From Tannerella sp. (GTDB taxonomy: Bacteria > Bacteroidota > Bacteroidia > Bacteroidales > Tannerellaceae): a DNA stretch of 24,151 bases. The notes under the pieces are model-generated. The model was not told the DNA's origin. It was given only the letters and a program-made list of their open reading frames with translations, and made no database searches. The position numbers and the translations under genes are program-made. Where the stretch lies: positions 1 to 24,151 of the forward strand of contig JAIRXI010000236.1 of assembly GCA_031268395.1 (NCBI GenBank), written 5' to 3'. Shown one piece after another: positions 1,453 to 8,743 of this stretch (positions are counted from its first letter, which is position 1; every line of letters starts with the position of its first letter).

Positions 1453-3042
1453 CTACACGATTCCCAGTATTGAAGGCGCAACCAGGTCCACAATGCAATG
1501 CGCCTCGTCATTCAGCGAGCTTACCGCAAGGCGCTGGATAAATACGCGAAGCATACTGTCGCTCTCAAGGTCGGCCAGCGCATCTTTCGTCCGCACGCGG
1601 CGGCCGCTGTCATAAACCTGCAAATAGTCAGGGTCTATGATTAACGCGCGGTAATCCCATCCCAGATCCTCAAACGAAGGCTCCTGAATCACATACAGCG
1701 TGCCGAACGAACTGTCAATGCCGTCGAACGTCATGTCAAACAGCTCCTTTTTGCCCGGAAGACGGCGCAGGTGAGTCACATTCATCGCGTCGAACATCTC
1801 AAGCAGATTGCGCCCGCAAAGCATCAGTTTGCGCTTGTTCGTAGCCGTTCCGCCAAAGGAAAAATTCATCATCGTCGCCACGCGCGACTCCGACAGTGTC
1901 GCCGCGCCGATTGATGCCGCCGCAGGGTCTATAACAAAACGCTTCGGTACCTGATAAGCCAGACCCTCCGTAAAATACACATTCTCCTGCTGATCAATAT
2001 GCTTGTTTCTTGTACGGAGAACCGTAGCCGCTCCGTTACCCAGCAAACTGATATTCTGCTCGCGCTTATGCTGGAATACGCCAAGCTCCTGAATATCCTC
2101 CATCGTCCATTCATAACGCTTGTTCGCGTTCTTGAACAGGTTCGACATCTGAATCTGCAGGATAAATTTCTGCATGAACTGCGTTTTCAGTTCGGGAAAC
2201 GCCGAGAAATTCGCCGTCCGAACCTGCGTCTCCGAGCAGGCCACGCCCGATCGCGTCAACTTCGTATTCACCGCTATCGCCGGAATCATCCGAGGCGACG
2301 TTGCGCTCGCCTGACTCCCGTTCACCGCCTTCACGATAGGCTTGTTACTGTTCGAGATGTCCACAACATACAACTGCAGCTGACTGCGGGGATCAACCGT
2401 CGCCGTACCCGGATAATATCCGTTAATACCGCGTACGAGAATTGTACTCTCCGGCTGGAACAGCGCATTATCATTCGTGTCAAGTTCCGTCATCTCATTC
2501 CCGGCGGCGATAGCCGTTTTCAGCGTCGTCGTCATCCCCGGAAGACTGGCCATGGCGTTATCCACGCCCGGACCCGCCTTTATCTTGCGTTTAATAGCCG
2601 GTACTTTCCTGCCGCTTGCATCCGTCACTTCCGCATTCAGTATCGACACGAAGGGATTCGTAAACGGAAAAAGCTTCATCACCTCATTAACCTCATTAAG
2701 AATAAGGTCAATCTGTTCCTCCTCCGCCGTAGTAACCGACGCCCCCCTGTTAGAGCCTTTTGTATACGAATTAGCGTCATACAGCGCATTCCCGTTAGCG
2801 TCGACCGAGGCCGGGATATTAGCTTCGCCATGCATCACCACGCCCTCGGCATGTCCGTCGTTCGTCGCGCCCGACGGCAAAGTCTGACCGGACGCAGGCT
2901 CCGTAATCACTGCGCCCCCCATTGCGCCCCCCGCCGGAGCAGCCGCAGCAAGCAACATCCCGCCTGCCATTGGCAGAACAAGCATAACCGCCACACACAG
3001 CCCCGCCAACAAAATCTGAATAAATAAATCTCTCTTTCTCAT
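1453..3042 (-). CDS. Probable phage major capsid protein (HK97 fold, SU10/DUF5309-like) with hydrophobic N-terminus
   Basis: A 529-aa protein. From about residue 105 it reads like the Bacteroidetes branch of HK97-fold capsids. It has a 'NEVMKLFPFTNPFVSIL' segment near the start of the domain, an 'LVRGINGY' strand, and a 'QFMQKFILQIQMSNLFKNANK' long helix leading to 'EWTMEDIQELGVF'. 'FSFGGTATNKRKLMLCGRNLL' and 'IIDPDYLQVY' follow near the C-terminus. This is recognition by overall pattern; I ran no search. Residues about 6-45 form a signal-peptide or membrane-anchor-like stretch (basic MRKR, then a Leu/Val/Ala/Gly run), which is odd for a cytoplasmic capsid. A shorter start at an internal Met (residue 41 or 70) would remove it. 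The ATG lies inside the first bases of the repeat at 3041-3230, and I see no good promoter upstream. The 141-aa gene follows after 3 bp. Confidence 0.7.
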   Translation of the reverse strand: MRKRDLFIQILLAGLCVAVMLVLPMAGGMLLAAAAPAGGAMGGAVITEPASGQTLPSGATNDGHAEGVVMHGEANIPASVDANGNALYDANSYTKGSNRGASVTTAEEEQIDLILNEVNEVMKLFPFTNPFVSILNAEVTDASGRKVPAIKRKIKAGPGVDNAMASLPGMTTTLKTAIAAGNEMTELDTNDNALFQPESTILVRGINGYYPGTATVDPRSQLQLYVVDISNSNKPIVKAVNGSQASATSPRMIPAIAVNTKLTRSGVACSETQVRTANFSAFPELKTQFMQKFILQIQMSNLFKNANKRYEWTMEDIQELGVFQHKREQNISLLGNGAATVLRTRNKHIDQQENVYFTEGLAYQVPKRFVIDPAAASIGAATLSESRVATMMNFSFGGTATNKRKLMLCGRNLLEMFDAMNVTHLRRLPGKKELFDMTFDGIDSSFGTLYVIQEPSFEDLGWDYRALIIDPDYLQVYDSGRRVRTKDALADLESDSMLRVFIQRLAVSSLNDEAHCIVDLVAPSILGIV

Positions 3043-3230
3043 AAGCCCAAAATGTCCATTAGAACATAATAATCTGATAATACGTATTATAATGTTTTTA
3101 CTTTCTAATGGACACCATTAGAAAATGTAAGATGTAACAAGCATATAATAAGAAATATACAGTGCATTAATTCATGAAAAACAGATACCTTTTTGAGGAA
3201 TTAATGCGCTAATGGACATTTTGGGTTTAT
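3041..3230. repeat. MITE-like palindromic element between rarA and the capsid gene
   Basis: Two 22-bp ends (3041-3062 and 3209-3230) form an inverted repeat with one mismatch, around the perfect 17-mer CCCAAAATGTCCATTAG. Between them lie three more palindromes. The first is ATAATACGTATTAT (3077-3090). The second is TCTAATGG-ACA-CCATTAGA (3104-3122), a copy of the end motif. The third is a 10-bp stem GCATTAATTC/GAATTAATGC (3164-3173 with 3198-3207). No coding sequence is present. The same 17-mer bounds the element at 7479-8050. The large hairpin may also act as a terminator or insulator after rarA. Confidence 0.8.
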
Positions 3231-3241
3231 TTCGCACCCTT

Positions 3242-4615: not shown

Positions 4616-7186
4616 TCAGAAGGAAAATTCTATTTTCATCCGCAAGCCACGGCCGGGCGTATGCGGGTGGTTGCGGTACGAAAGACGCCATACATAGTCC
4701 AGGCGCAGGACTTTGAAGATGTTGTCGACGCCGATGCCGGCTTCCATGTAGGGGCCTTCCGTCATCAGGTAGCTGTTTGCCGGAAAGCGGTAAAGTCCCG
4801 CGCCGTTTTCGGCCGGGCTGTTCCTGTCACTCAGGCTGCCATACCAGCCCCGGAAGGAGAAGACCTCGCGCAGTTTCAGGTATTTGACGAGCGGGAGACG
4901 GTTGAGCAGCGAACCGTTTGCGAACCAGGAAAGTTCCCACGATACATGCCGGTCGTTGATAAATTCCATGGGATCCATCAGCGTATACGATTCCGGCTCG
5001 ATGCTGTAGGAAAGGTTGGCATTCGGAATGATCAGCAGCGGCCAGGGCGCCCTGTCCCACACCGCGCCGGCCTGACCGTACAGGTCCACGTATCCGAAGG
5101 GCGACATCCAGAAGCGTTTCCGGATGCCGAGGTCGGTACGGTTGTAACGGTATTCGGAGCCGAGCAGTCCTTTGGGCGAATAGATATGGCTCAGGGTAAA
5201 TATGGGCGCATCCAGCGTAATGGGGTAGCGGTAATTGCGCGACTGGTAAAACTTTTCGTCCGGCGCCCAGCGCACTTTTCCTTCAATCTGGGCGGAGTGA
5301 TAGCCGCCGGCCGGGACGGTGGCGCCGTCGGGCAGGATCTTTTCAAAGGGGATGTCCGGCGTGGCCCATTCCGTCACGTGACGCGCCGAAAGGCCATATC
5401 CCCAGCCGTTGTAGCGCTCGTGCCAGTAGCTCAGTTCGGCGGTCCGCATATACGTAATCAGGTTGTTGCGTCGCCGTTTCAGCATCATGAAAAGATTGTC
5501 GGGATTGGTATAGAGGTAGTGCTGCCCGACCTGGTTGATGTCGTGCTTGAATTCGGCCCGCAGGTAGTGGAAAGGATACTCCTTGCGGAAAGACTTCTTG
5601 TCGTTGAAGGAATACTCCAGGATAAGATCACCCTTGAGTTTCCGGTCTCCGGCGCCCCAGGCCAGGTAGCCGTCCGCGAAGAGGCGGCGGCTGAGGTTGA
5701 CCGTTGTCGTTCCGCCGATGCGGAAGCGGGCGCCTTCCAGCGAATTGCCGCTGATGAACGTGTTCACCGGCCCGAACTCGAACTTGCTGTCTGTTTCGGA
5801 CGTCTGGACATATCCGTTGATCAGCGTACCGGCGACTTTTTCCGTCCAGAAGTAGGCCGGTATGGCCCGCAGGCGTTCCATCATCCTGTCTACGGACGTC
5901 TCCTGTATCTCCTTTTCCCTGACCCGGCGGGCACGCCAGAAAGCGTCCGGCTGCCTGCGGGCCTCGTCCGACTCCACGACCGGCGCCCCCTCTCCGAAGA
6001 CGGCCAACTCTCCGGGCGGTGCAAAGGAATGGTTATGGTAGAGGCATATCCGGCGGGCGTAGAATCCTTTGGACTTTTCGGTGATCCGGAACTCCACGAC
6101 GATGTCGTTTTTGGTCATCAGCCGGGTCCGGCGGTCTCCGGTACGGTCGAAGCGCTGTTCGATCGTCATGTGGCCCACGTAGTTCAGGTTGATAGCCTTC
6201 GGCACGTTCAGGACAGCCCGCTTCACGAAACAGGTCGAGTCGAGCGTGATATAAAGATGCCCGGTGAACCCGAACGATTCCGAATGGTAGGGCACGAAGG
6301 CCAGCTCTGCACACGGTTCGCTGTCGATGTCCAGGGTGTCGAGCAGGTAATATTTGTAGAAATAGGGCGCAAACGAAGCCAGCGGACTGACAAATCGGTT
6401 CAGGAACAGCGGGACGTTGTCCTGGAAAATGTCGACTTCCCGGAATACCTCCTCAATAAACTGCCGGGTACCGTCTTCGGGGAGGATGTCGATCAGGCCG
6501 TTGCGCCGGTGTCCCTGGACGACCTGCTTTTCCGAGCGCGGCGACTTCCGGAAGTATGTTGTCCCGACGATCTCCTCGTCGAAGACGGGCAGTATTGTTT
6601 TGCCGGTGACGGCCGACGTGTCCACATAGTCGAAAATAAAATCAATTCGCTTGTATATCCAGTTGTTTCGGGCCTTTGCCTCGTCGAAATCGTTCCGGGC
6701 CAGGATTTTCTGTTCATAAGTATCGTAGCTGAAATAGTCCCGGCTGCGCGGGTCGTTCAGGTTGCGCCGGTTGATGGCCTGTTCGATCAGTTCCACCGCC
6801 GGGTTGTTTTTCCGGGAATAGCGTTCTTTACCGGGATTCACCACCACATCGGCCAACTGGTAGATGACGGGCTGCAGGCGTATCGCCAGCCGGCTGGCGC
6901 CGGCCGGCACGGGTTGCCGGTATTCCGCGTAGCCTACGGCCGAAGCAACCAGCAGGGCGCTGTCTGACTGTGCCCGGAAGGAAAAATATCCGTCGCCGTC
7001 GGTTGCCGTCCCGAAGGTTGTACCTTTCAGGTAGACCGACACGCCGGGCAGGGCTTCGTCCGTCAGCGAATCCGTGACATGCCCTTCCACCTGAACCGTG
7101 CGCTGTGCATAGCCGTCTGTACCACAGACGGCTAAACAGATGAGCAGTAAAAATAACGCAGTCGCCGGATGATTCCCTGTTTTCAT
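4616..7186 (-). CDS. DUF5686 outer-membrane protein with carboxypeptidase-like regulatory domain
   Basis: An 856-aa exported protein. A signal peptide (about 1-27, ending GYAQ) comes first. A carboxypeptidase D regulatory-like beta-sandwich follows (about 30-115: VEGHVTDSLTDEALPGVSVYLKGT, DGYFSF), then the conserved linker LADVVVNPGKERYSRKNNPAVELI. The rest is the long DUF5686 region. The last half is rich in alternating aromatic strands and ends in IEFSF with a terminal Phe, as outer-membrane beta-barrels do. The architecture resembles SusC/TonB-dependent proteins without a recognisable plug. The family's function is unknown; it is common in Bacteroidetes and presumed to act at the cell envelope. 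It has its own promoter and is followed after 51 bp by rarA on the same strand. Confidence 0.88.
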   Translation of the reverse strand: MKTGNHPATALFLLLICLAVCGTDGYAQRTVQVEGHVTDSLTDEALPGVSVYLKGTTFGTATDGDGYFSFRAQSDSALLVASAVGYAEYRQPVPAGASRLAIRLQPVIYQLADVVVNPGKERYSRKNNPAVELIEQAINRRNLNDPRSRDYFSYDTYEQKILARNDFDEAKARNNWIYKRIDFIFDYVDTSAVTGKTILPVFDEEIVGTTYFRKSPRSEKQVVQGHRRNGLIDILPEDGTRQFIEEVFREVDIFQDNVPLFLNRFVSPLASFAPYFYKYYLLDTLDIDSEPCAELAFVPYHSESFGFTGHLYITLDSTCFVKRAVLNVPKAINLNYVGHMTIEQRFDRTGDRRTRLMTKNDIVVEFRITEKSKGFYARRICLYHNHSFAPPGELAVFGEGAPVVESDEARRQPDAFWRARRVREKEIQETSVDRMMERLRAIPAYFWTEKVAGTLINGYVQTSETDSKFEFGPVNTFISGNSLEGARFRIGGTTTVNLSRRLFADGYLAWGAGDRKLKGDLILEYSFNDKKSFRKEYPFHYLRAEFKHDINQVGQHYLYTNPDNLFMMLKRRRNNLITYMRTAELSYWHERYNGWGYGLSARHVTEWATPDIPFEKILPDGATVPAGGYHSAQIEGKVRWAPDEKFYQSRNYRYPITLDAPIFTLSHIYSPKGLLGSEYRYNRTDLGIRKRFWMSPFGYVDLYGQAGAVWDRAPWPLLIIPNANLSYSIEPESYTLMDPMEFINDRHVSWELSWFANGSLLNRLPLVKYLKLREVFSFRGWYGSLSDRNSPAENGAGLYRFPANSYLMTEGPYMEAGIGVDNIFKVLRLDYVWRLSYRNHPHTPGRGLRMKIEFSF

Positions 7187-7251: not shown

Positions 7252-7353
7252 TGGTTCTTATCATGGTTAAATTAGTCGGAATATAGCTTTTTAACAGGGT
7301 TTGAAAGGGAGAAATTGGACGTTTTCCTGTCGTGTGCGGAAGACGGAGATTCA

Positions 7354-7401
7354 AACACGGAGGACACAGCGAGGACGGATTTTCTTTGTGTCCTCCGTGT
7401 T
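7354..7401. repeat. 15-bp perfect inverted repeat (hairpin) in intergenic DNA
   Basis: AACACGGAGGACACA (7354-7368) pairs perfectly with TGTGTCCTCCGTGTT (7387-7401) across an 18-base loop. No T-run follows on either strand, so it is not a standard terminator. Just upstream, 7325-7343 is a degraded match to TCCTGTCATGTCCGGAAGA at 7891-7909. This repeat family therefore extends beyond the 7479-8050 element. The rest of 7252-7478 holds no gene that I can support. Confidence 0.75.
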
Positions 7402-7506
7402 CCCATGTTGAAAATAAACGGGAAAGGACACAGAGACGCATCCTGCAAATGCGAGGCAACACTTCTTATGTTATTTATCCCAAAATGTCCATTAGACGCT
7501 TCAGCC

Positions 7507-7527
7507 GTTGAAAGTTGAAAGTAGAAA
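7507..7527. repeat. GTTGAAA heptanucleotide array (3 units)
   Basis: GTTGAAA, GTTGAAA and GTAGAAA follow each other in register. It is the same 7-bp periodicity as the AATTGAG array at 873-942, in a different sequence family. Confidence 0.75.
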
Positions 7528-7580: not shown

Positions 7581-7719
7581 CCGGGACGGGTTGACGGGCG
7601 GATATTCCGTTTGTGGCCGGCAGGCAGTCTTCTCTTCCGGACATAGTTGGAATAACAGAGACACAGAGACGCAGCGCGCTGCGTCTCTACTCTTCCGGAC
7701 ACGACACGAGAAGCGTCTA
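7581..7719. repeat. Left arm of 81-bp inverted repeat, split by an insert
   Basis: 7581-7643 plus 7702-7719 together match the reverse complement of 7881-7961 at 75 of 81 positions. The intervening bases 7644-7701 have no counterpart in the right arm. The arm includes the words GGCCGGCAGGCAGTCTT and CTTCCGGACA. Confidence 0.9.
7632..7701. mobile_element. 46-bp palindromic insert flanked by a 12-bp direct repeat
   Basis: CTCTTCCGGACA occurs at 7632-7643 and again at 7690-7701. The 46 bp between them (7644-7689) contain a perfect 24-bp palindrome (7665-7688, half-site AGAGACGCAGCG). The right arm of the surrounding inverted repeat has the 12-mer once and lacks the insert. The pattern is that of a tiny hairpin element inserted with a target duplication. 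Confidence 0.75.
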
Positions 7720-7769
7720 ATCAGGTCCGCATACAGCCGGAAAATCCCCGATTTTCCCCCGAAAAAGGC

Positions 7770-7833
7770 CAAATTTCCCTATGGAAATTCCCATTTCCCT
7801 ATGGGGAATTACCGATTTCCATAGGGGAATTTG
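7770..7833. repeat. Central hairpin of the composite element
   Basis: CAAATTTCCCTATGGAAAT (7770-7788) pairs with ATTTCCATAGGGGAATTTG (7815-7833) with one mismatch. A third palindromic copy, TTTCCCTATGGGGAA, lies in the loop. Three related TCCCTATGG words in 50 bp suggest local duplication. Confidence 0.85.
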
Positions 7834-7880
7834 CCCCGTAAAATCTGTTTTTATCCTTAAAATGAGCGTTTTAAAAAAAA

Positions 7881-7961
7881 TAGATGCTTCTCCTGTCATG
7901 TCCGGAAGAAAAGACTGCCTGCCGGCCGCAAACGGAATATCTGCCCGTCAACCCGTCCCGG
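7881..7961. repeat. Right, uninterrupted arm of the 81-bp inverted repeat
   Basis: Reverse-complement partner of 7581-7643 plus 7702-7719 (75 of 81 positions match). It is the intact reference that shows the left arm carries an insertion. Confidence 0.9.
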
Positions 7962-8135
7962 CCGTCCCGGGCCATCGTGCGTTGCGGGCCGTTTTTTCCC
8001 GGCAGGATCTCCCGGACACGACGGAGGAAGTGTCTAATGGACATGTTGGGTTTATTTCGCAGCGATAGAATCCGCGTTTTGGAGAAAGGCGAAACGGGAA
8101 AGAAGCGGTCTCTGGCAGAAAAAACACCCGAAAAG

Positions 8136-8287: not shown

Positions 8288-8743
8288 GTGGATACTTTAA
8301 GTTATAAGACCATTTCTGCAAACAAGGCAACTGTAACCAAAGAGTGGGTGGTTGTAGATGCGACCGACCAGGTGTTGGGGCGTATCTGTTCGAAAGTAGC
8401 CAAACTTTTGCGCGGCAAATATAAACCCAATTTCACTCCGCATGTTGATTGTGGTGATAATGTAATTATTATCAATGCAGATAAAGCCGTTCTGACAGGG
8501 AACAAGTGGAACGGCCGTATTTATTTGAGATACACCGGTTATCCCGGCGGGCAGCGTGAATACACCCCGGCCATGTTGAAGGAAAAGGGAGAAGATCGCC
8601 TGTTCAGGAAAGTAGTCAAGGGCATGTTGCCTAAAAATCGTCTGGGAGACAAGCTGCTCGGCAATTTATATGTATATGCGGGCAGCGAGCACAGGCACGA
8701 GGCACAAACCCCCAAACAGGTAGATATCAACCTACTTAAATAA
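8288..8743 (+). CDS. rplM: 50S ribosomal protein L13 (uL13)
   Basis: A 151-aa large-subunit protein with the typical Bacteroidales opening DTLSYKTISANKATVTKEW and the L13 signatures VVDATDQVLGR, KLLRGK, GDNVIIINADK, YTGYPGG and GMLPKN..G. The C-terminus is HEAQTPKQVDINLLK. The start is a GTG (8288), chosen because the family begins exactly there and the only upstream ATG (8262) hits a stop after seven codons. rpsI follows 4 bp later, the conserved L13-S9 pair. Regulated from the promoter near 8160. Confidence 0.97.
   Translation: MDTLSYKTISANKATVTKEWVVVDATDQVLGRICSKVAKLLRGKYKPNFTPHVDCGDNVIIINADKAVLTGNKWNGRIYLRYTGYPGGQREYTPAMLKEKGEDRLFRKVVKGMLPKNRLGDKLLGNLYVYAGSEHRHEAQTPKQVDINLLK

Follow-up and report, generated by a model that had tools for sequence, protein, structure and literature searches.

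What kind of event leaves the same 12 bp on both sides of a palindrome inside a larger repeat? The question is raised by the window, the whole 24,151-nucleotide stretch of a Tannerella sp. genome that we analysed (assembly GCA_031268395.1, contig JAIRXI010000236.1, forward strand), in a 1.1-kb gap that separates a DUF5686-family ORF from the one for ribosomal protein L13. Here the left arm of an inverted repeat (7581-7643 joined to 7702-7719, with 58 bp removed) is identical at 75 of 81 positions to the reverse complement of the right arm (7881-7961); a BLAST comparison of the region with the window gave the arm pair as 65 bp, 95% alike (E = 7.7e-25). A 46-bp segment, 7644-7689, is bracketed by CTCTTCCGGACA at 7632-7643 and CTCTTCCGGACA at 7690-7701, and contains a perfect 24-bp palindrome (7665-7688, halves AGAGACGCAGCG/CGCTGCGTCTCT). 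This is the sole perfect palindrome of at least 20 bp in the window (mean of 0.05 over 20 mononucleotide shuffles), and a search of the window against Rfam returned no matches. The first-pass annotation had described the arms, the segment and the palindrome in just these terms, and that description holds. It had gone on to propose that a very small hairpin element had inserted into the repeat and duplicated 12 bp of its target, with the intact arm serving as a control for the sequence before insertion.

Our reading is different. With a probability of about 0.8, the interruption is a REP of the GTAG or 'double foot' type at the joint of two copies of a module, C, within a mosaic (BIME-like) composite, and the 12-bp pair arose without target duplication. 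The 12-bp 'duplication' most likely represents the beginnings of two C copies and not the scar of a fresh insertion. The parts of the composite and its neighbours are as follows.

4616-7186, minus strand: divergent ORF, DUF5686 family.
7581-7643, plus strand: first part of the left arm, a B module and then 12 bp that open a truncated C (C'); supported by the 95% arm pair and by the B modules in the loci of the genome that were examined.
7632-7643, plus strand: first CTCTTCCGGACA, the start of C'; full C modules that follow other upstream modules begin in the same way.
7644-7657, plus strand: TAGTTGGAATAACA, the 3' tail of C' (C minus the 25 bp between its two GGACA words).
7658-7665, plus strand: 8-bp shoulder GAGACACA, in part a repeat of the REP arm; the shoulder's final base is also the first of the palindrome.
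7665-7688, no strand: perfect 24-bp palindrome, the REP hairpin; folds as a hairpin.
7666-7690, minus strand: REP unit GTAGAGACGCAGCGCGCTGCGTCTC; the GTAG foot is retained at this end and the other foot is lost.
7690-7721, plus strand: second C module, beginning CTCTTCCGGACACGACACGAGAAGCGTCTAAT; its first 12 bp are the right 'duplicate'.
7722-7880, no strand: middle of the composite, from CAGGTCCGCATACAGCC to AAAATGAGCGTTTTAAAAAAAA; recurs in other composites.
7881-7961, minus strand: right arm, uninterrupted B-C.
8008-8050, plus strand: further C module behind a different upstream module, which marks C as a separate unit.
8288-8743, plus strand: ribosomal protein L13 ORF.

Other repeats surround these parts. 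The composite middle holds an imperfect inverted repeat with 33-bp arms made of ATTTCCCTATGG units (7767-7836), and just upstream of the composite a 15-bp perfect inverted repeat, AACACGGAGGACACA / TGTGTCCTCCGTGTT, encloses an 18-bp loop (7354-7401). Pieces of the C module or its tail are found in both orientations elsewhere in the window, at 7320-7343, 7479-7508, 8008-8050, 3041-3063 and 3209-3236.

The reading depends on C being a unit of its own. The genome examined (G000) is a fragmented assembly of 3.13 Mb in 425 contigs, 82% complete, and the B-C'-REP-C structure is nonetheless present on many contigs. B (GACGGGTTGACGGGCGGATATTCCGTTTGCGGCCGGCAGGCAGTCTT) and C (CTCTTCCGGACACGACAGGAGAAGCGTCTAATGGACATGTTGGGATAA) each recur separately in it; C is found at 63 places with three mismatches or fewer, against none for the reversed control, and the module upstream of it may be B but also one of several others. 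Within C the word GGACA occurs twice, 25 bp apart, and what precedes the palindrome, usually CTCTTCCGGACATATTGGAATAACA, is C minus the 25 bp between these words. C' thus reads CTCTTCCGGACA + TATTGGAATAACA in most copies, and its tail in the window carries one additional base. The usual insert tail TATTGGAATAA agrees with the common C tail GGACATGTTGGGATAA at 9 of 11 positions (random frequency 1e-4); for the tail of copy C29, TGTTGGAATAA, agreement is 10 of 11 (random frequency 2.5e-6). The 46-bp segment, taken earlier as one unit, is compound: the tail of C', the 8-bp shoulder (GAGACGTA or GGGACGTA in several sister copies) and the REP. Its left 14 bp belong to a repeat that starts with the very 12 bp that were to have been duplicated. 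Since the two 12-bp words are the starts of two C copies, C' and C, the same 12 bp come to flank the REP without any target-site duplication.

The other composites bear this out. At the 13 composite REP sites C' lies on the left in 12 (the exception is C20) and C on the right in 12 (the exception is C200), with the start of C trimmed in C46 and C247. Nine of the 13 have the 12-bp word on either side with no more than two mismatches, and four have it exactly. The parts are separable, for C29 lacks B, C200 the right C and C20 the shortened C on the left. As B, C' or C can be missing in single copies while C' and C otherwise flank the REP, the 12-bp pair is not tied to the REP. No full-length C ran directly into a whole REP among 79 contexts of the C tail, where one (L067) ran into half a REP, and the deletion within C is for this reason a step that we infer. 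At another locus of this genome (L061, C409) a C'-like word, CTGCCGGACATGTCGGGATAC, with three mismatches, lies about 28 bp before a single-site REP.

The palindrome itself belongs to a dispersed family of the form GTAGAGACG-core-CGTCTCTAC. GAGACG...CGTCTC pairs occur at 27 places in the genome, against two for the reversed pattern; 24 have the standard 22-bp length, 13 of them in the mosaic composite and 11 outside it, at unrelated sites with different flanks. In this respect the first-pass annotation was right, as its hairpin does belong to a dispersed family of mobile type. Counts of the pattern TAGAGACG-N6to14-CGTCTCTA range from 0 to 85 across the 41 genomes of the genus (reversed control 0), and 33 of these genomes, ours among them, have it. 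In a draw of 395 genomes from the phylum the pattern was found in 65, with the reversed control positive in four. TAGAGACGCGATNNATCGCGTCTCTA was found in at least 116 stretches, assigned by record title to Cyanobacteria, Bacteroidota, gammaproteobacteria, Patescibacteria, Spirochaetia, Calditrichota and others. A search of these stretches (844 kb) for perfect palindromes, blind to the arm, gave 60 besides the anchor, of which 33 carry GAGACG in the arm (eight of the 33 from one locus, L164). The outer arm is therefore shared, and the inner core is variable yet self-complementary. With a phage vector in mind, two core patterns were sought in viral contigs and occur there in only 16 and 10 stretches. 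The arm word CGTCTC, facing outward, is also what the type IIS enzymes BsmBI/Esp3I recognize, and their cuts would fall at the ends of the element; this is probably coincidence. Text searches of the literature for the arm and core words gave nothing related among the matches listed, judged by title.

The hairpin has the fully paired stem of 7-20 bp and small loop of a published rule for REPs (PMC6006769), with a DNA fold of a 10-bp stem and a 4-nt loop. Its ends, or feet, vary. In 39 further copies from the named loci both GTA and TAC are present in 23, one of them in 14 and neither in two; the 11 single-site copies in this genome have both in two and one in nine, and the window copy has one.

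That modules recur in many combinations in this genome would also suit a purely recombinational mosaic, in which the REP, not itself mobile here, arrived as a piece of the junction between repeats. The presence of the family at 11 unrelated single sites in the genome, and in other phyla, counts against this. Passive carriage at this one locus could still have occurred, and we regard a mosaic of this kind as unlikely.

The interruption is not peculiar to the window. Among 45 B modules in 56 loci of the genome, 12 enter the shortened C and are interrupted, and 33 are not (one C variant, and 32 flagged as entering C, among them C115, which keeps to C for only a few bases). The interruption precedes left-arm, right-arm and solo-C contexts alike. 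The same interruption at 12 of the 45 B modules means that it spreads together with the larger repeat; for the window copy this is the outcome that the first-pass annotation had named as refuting its proposal. Interrupted B modules lie closer to one another (distance 0.106) than to uninterrupted ones (0.137), and the uninterrupted lie 0.103 from each other; these values are from 44 of the 45 (C115 omitted), and the modules are not long enough to give a firm tree. In 99 relatives, with at most eight candidates scored per genome, the composite was not found; only palindromes matched, in three congeners. The C module was found in two of 41 genomes of the genus, this genome being one of the two.

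These counts bear on the direction of change. Deletion between the two CTCTTCCGGACA copies of an older B-C'-REP-C would produce exactly the uninterrupted B-C, and the occurrence of interrupted copies in left-arm, right-arm and solo contexts is in keeping with such an origin. The continuous arm of the window is accordingly not proven to be ancestral, or to be the pre-insertion control that it was taken for. Against the deletion stand the uninterrupted B modules, about three times as common (33 of 45), and the C modules that lie directly behind other modules. Deletion may still apply to single copies; as the general history we consider it distinctly unlikely.

If the family moved with duplication of its target, direct repeats should mark its other sites, and the first-pass annotation had proposed to look for a different one of 10-13 bp at each copy. 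Outside the composite, none of 221 sites has direct repeats of 10 bp or more at the REP ends, with shifts of two bases allowed (five for the sites in this genome), and within the composite the copies share their flanks. The 221 comprise 138 sites in named loci, 40 in the genus, 32 in viral contigs and the 11 single sites of this genome, for which the longest direct repeats are 8, 4, 5 and 5 bp, respectively. From the named, genus and viral sets together, rows with odd cores (eight), imperfect palindromes (eight) or a position near the locus end (seven) were left out, as were ten composite rows (two in the genus set and eight among the loci of this genome) and repeats of the same site. Y1 enzymes (IS200/IS605 and RAYT) insert without target duplication. 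The result suits these enzymes, and not the pairing of a RAYT with a target duplication that the first-pass annotation had made.

In-gene copies in Nostocaceae (33 genomes, 40 places examined) lie in variable protein loops, and no clean empty allele was found among these places. Some in-gene copies in chlH-like genes of Nostocaceae have similar bases on both sides, by eye, which counts against the reading without duplication. The same hairpin or other short repeats are found at one loop of a chlH/cobN-like gene, named from reading its translation, in several genomes of this family (L192, L194, L256 and matches L393-L412).

We also considered insertion at the centre of inverted repeats. An inverted flank of at least 6 bp is present at eight of 138 named sites (shuffle mean 0.8, maximum 4) and at none of 41 sites in the genus set or of 32 in viral contigs; the excess at named sites was thus not confirmed in either of the other sets and the idea was rejected. 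At L160, L180, L197 and L203 the palindromes are exactly centred in a larger inverted repeat.

Entry of a 46-bp hairpin element into an intact B-C arm, with duplication of 12 bp of target, agrees with the exact 12-bp pair in the window, with the fit of the arm minus 58 bp to the other arm and with the 33 of 45 B modules that lack the interruption, but it is very unlikely given that the insert has the tail of C as its left part, that the interrupted copies have common flanks, that the REP copies C200 and C20 each miss one 12-bp flank and that direct repeats are absent from the 221 outside sites.

Which enzyme could have placed the REP? 'Double foot' REPs, which open with GT[AG]G and close with C[TC]AC, belong to RAYT subclass 2.4, whose genes are described from Cyanobacteria, Bacteroidetes and scattered phyla and with REPs inside the genes themselves (PMC6006769). 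The present family appears to resemble these REPs of RAYT group 4 / TnpA_REP subclass 2.4. A motif search for RAYT-like ORFs in the loci numbered 152 and above gave six, with the hairpin inside five and none in the sixth (L459). A profile built from those five and run over all collected loci, which had been chosen for carrying the palindrome and not for carrying it in a RAYT, gave 11 ORF hits in nine loci. The family hairpin, in a loose pattern, lies inside ten of the 11, and the eleventh is a fragment beside one that has it. Six hits are outside the profile model (L195, L164 twice, L265, L307 and the L207 fragment), five of them with the hairpin. In other genomes only, RAYT-type ORFs with the hairpin inside are found at L152, L164, L195, L207, L245, L265 and L267 (seven of 116 named loci), and the genus-search loci L292 and L307 hold RAYT-type genes with a GTAGAGACG hairpin within the open frame. 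The earlier guess of an IS200/RAYT-type transposase therefore named the right enzyme family.

The NCBIfam model REP_Tyr_transpos matches all five of the RAYT-type ORFs tested (E of about 1e-12 to 1e-15), each of them falling short of the model's curated cut-off. The motifs published for subclass 2.4 are NH[IFV]H, WQ and YIxNNP; L207 and L292 have NHVH and YIINNP, and the other model ORFs have NHLH/YIIDNP, DHIH/YIRSNP and NHVH/YILSNP, so that both published motifs are exactly as written in only two of five.

Within the genome under study the search for a transposase found none. Pfam Y1_Tnp gave no matches in it, with a model that at its cut-off passes one of the five RAYT-type ORFs and misses four, and the RAYT profile had no hit in the stretches searched, a small part of the genome. 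The transposase expected by the first-pass annotation is thus seen, with its hairpin, in other genomes, and was not seen in this one by an insensitive model and a partial profile search. In the genus, Y1_Tnp is present in 17 of 41 genomes, and no association between its presence and REP number was detected with the same insensitive model (Mann-Whitney p = 0.70). G002 shows the difficulty: Pfam Y1_Tnp reports nothing, yet its locus L292 holds a RAYT-type gene. Because the model misses four of five RAYTs of the relevant class, its negatives in this genome and in the genus say little, and we have withdrawn them as evidence against RAYTs. Inspection of 20 of 21 Y1_Tnp places in the genus gave 11 IS200-like frames, one partial frame, two with YIHENP (L458 and L459) and six without a recognizable frame; none of the recognized frames has the hairpin inside. 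At L448 an IS200-like gene has a copy of a longer mosaic repeat on each side; the hairpin is part of that repeat, so the two flanking hairpins are not independent.

The preferred reading, a REP at the joint of two C copies, would involve three steps. A first copy of C would have lost the 25 bp between its GGACA words to become C', giving the order B, C', REP, C. A RAYT, present now or formerly, may have placed the first REP by single-strand transposition, with no duplication of target. The whole B-C'-REP-C segment would then have spread with the composite by recombination or copying.

The REP is of a known kind, and it is the nesting that is unusual. As in the double-foot REPs, the family hairpin can begin with GTAG and finish with CTAC, is found in Bacteroidetes, Cyanobacteria and other phyla and lies inside RAYT genes with the frame kept open; unlike them, the window copy has one foot only and sits inside a composite repeat, in a genome where an insensitive search found no RAYT (comparison with the available part of PMC6006769, in which the arm GTAGAGACG was not found). 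GTAG-tagged REPs are described as hairpins of 20-40 bp in many phyla, including Cyanobacteria, and also inside genes (Di Nocera et al., 2013; PMC3733652). The tagged hairpin, the range of phyla and the in-gene copies are all shared with the present family. The tag of those REPs is unpaired and at one end, whereas 23 of 39 further copies here carry a tag at each end; Bacteroidetes are placed under CGTC repeats in one passage there (PMC3733652).

A looser comparison is with larger mosaics and other small repeats. BIMEs are mosaic elements of REPs plus other motifs. The composite is like them in that a REP is joined to other repeat modules in intergenic DNA, and unlike them in that module C, found in this genome and one other of the 41 in the genus, is almost private to the species. 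The SDRs of heterocystous cyanobacteria, reportedly the subject of work by Elhai and colleagues in 2008, are likewise described as very small mobile repeats. One of them, SDR5, is said to enter HIP1 at a precise point, between its bases 3 and 4 (PMC4390886).

The REP at the composite site may have a history of its own. The 13 composite REPs have three cores, CAGCGCGCTG in three, TAGCGCGCTA in four and the GGGGCGCGCCCC type in six, perfectly self-complementary in 11. All nine copies with the CAGCGCGCTG or GGGGCGCGCCCC-type core are accompanied on one side by part of a REP arm. In C313, C205, C99, C421 and C20 this is GAGAC or GGGAC ahead of the new GTAGAGACG; in C29 and C247 it is GTCTC following CTAC; and in the window copy and C46 it is less regular. 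Of the copies with the TAG core, TAGCGCGCTA, C93 and C204 lack an arm piece, and C272 and C200 have extra arm-like units. GTAG, the word that a RAYT recognizes, lies within this core, so that an older REP would offer its successor a target, and REPs might turn over in place, each replaced from its GTAG onward by the one that follows. We offer this as a speculative and rather unlikely proposal. Slippage of an 8-bp unit in tandem may instead explain the arm pieces, as the extra arm-like units in two of the four TAG-core copies suggest. Were turnover in place to be true, REPs would be landing pads that renew themselves, and the composite would document a series of replacements.

Three points follow for repeats of this kind. 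A convincing 'target-site duplication' can arise without insertion when a repeat adjoins a truncated copy of itself. At its cut-off Pfam Y1_Tnp misses four of the five RAYTs tested, and surveys of presence and absence that use this model can mislead. Finally, the arm GTAGAGACG, common to REPs of several phyla, is tied to RAYT-type genes that carry the same hairpin.
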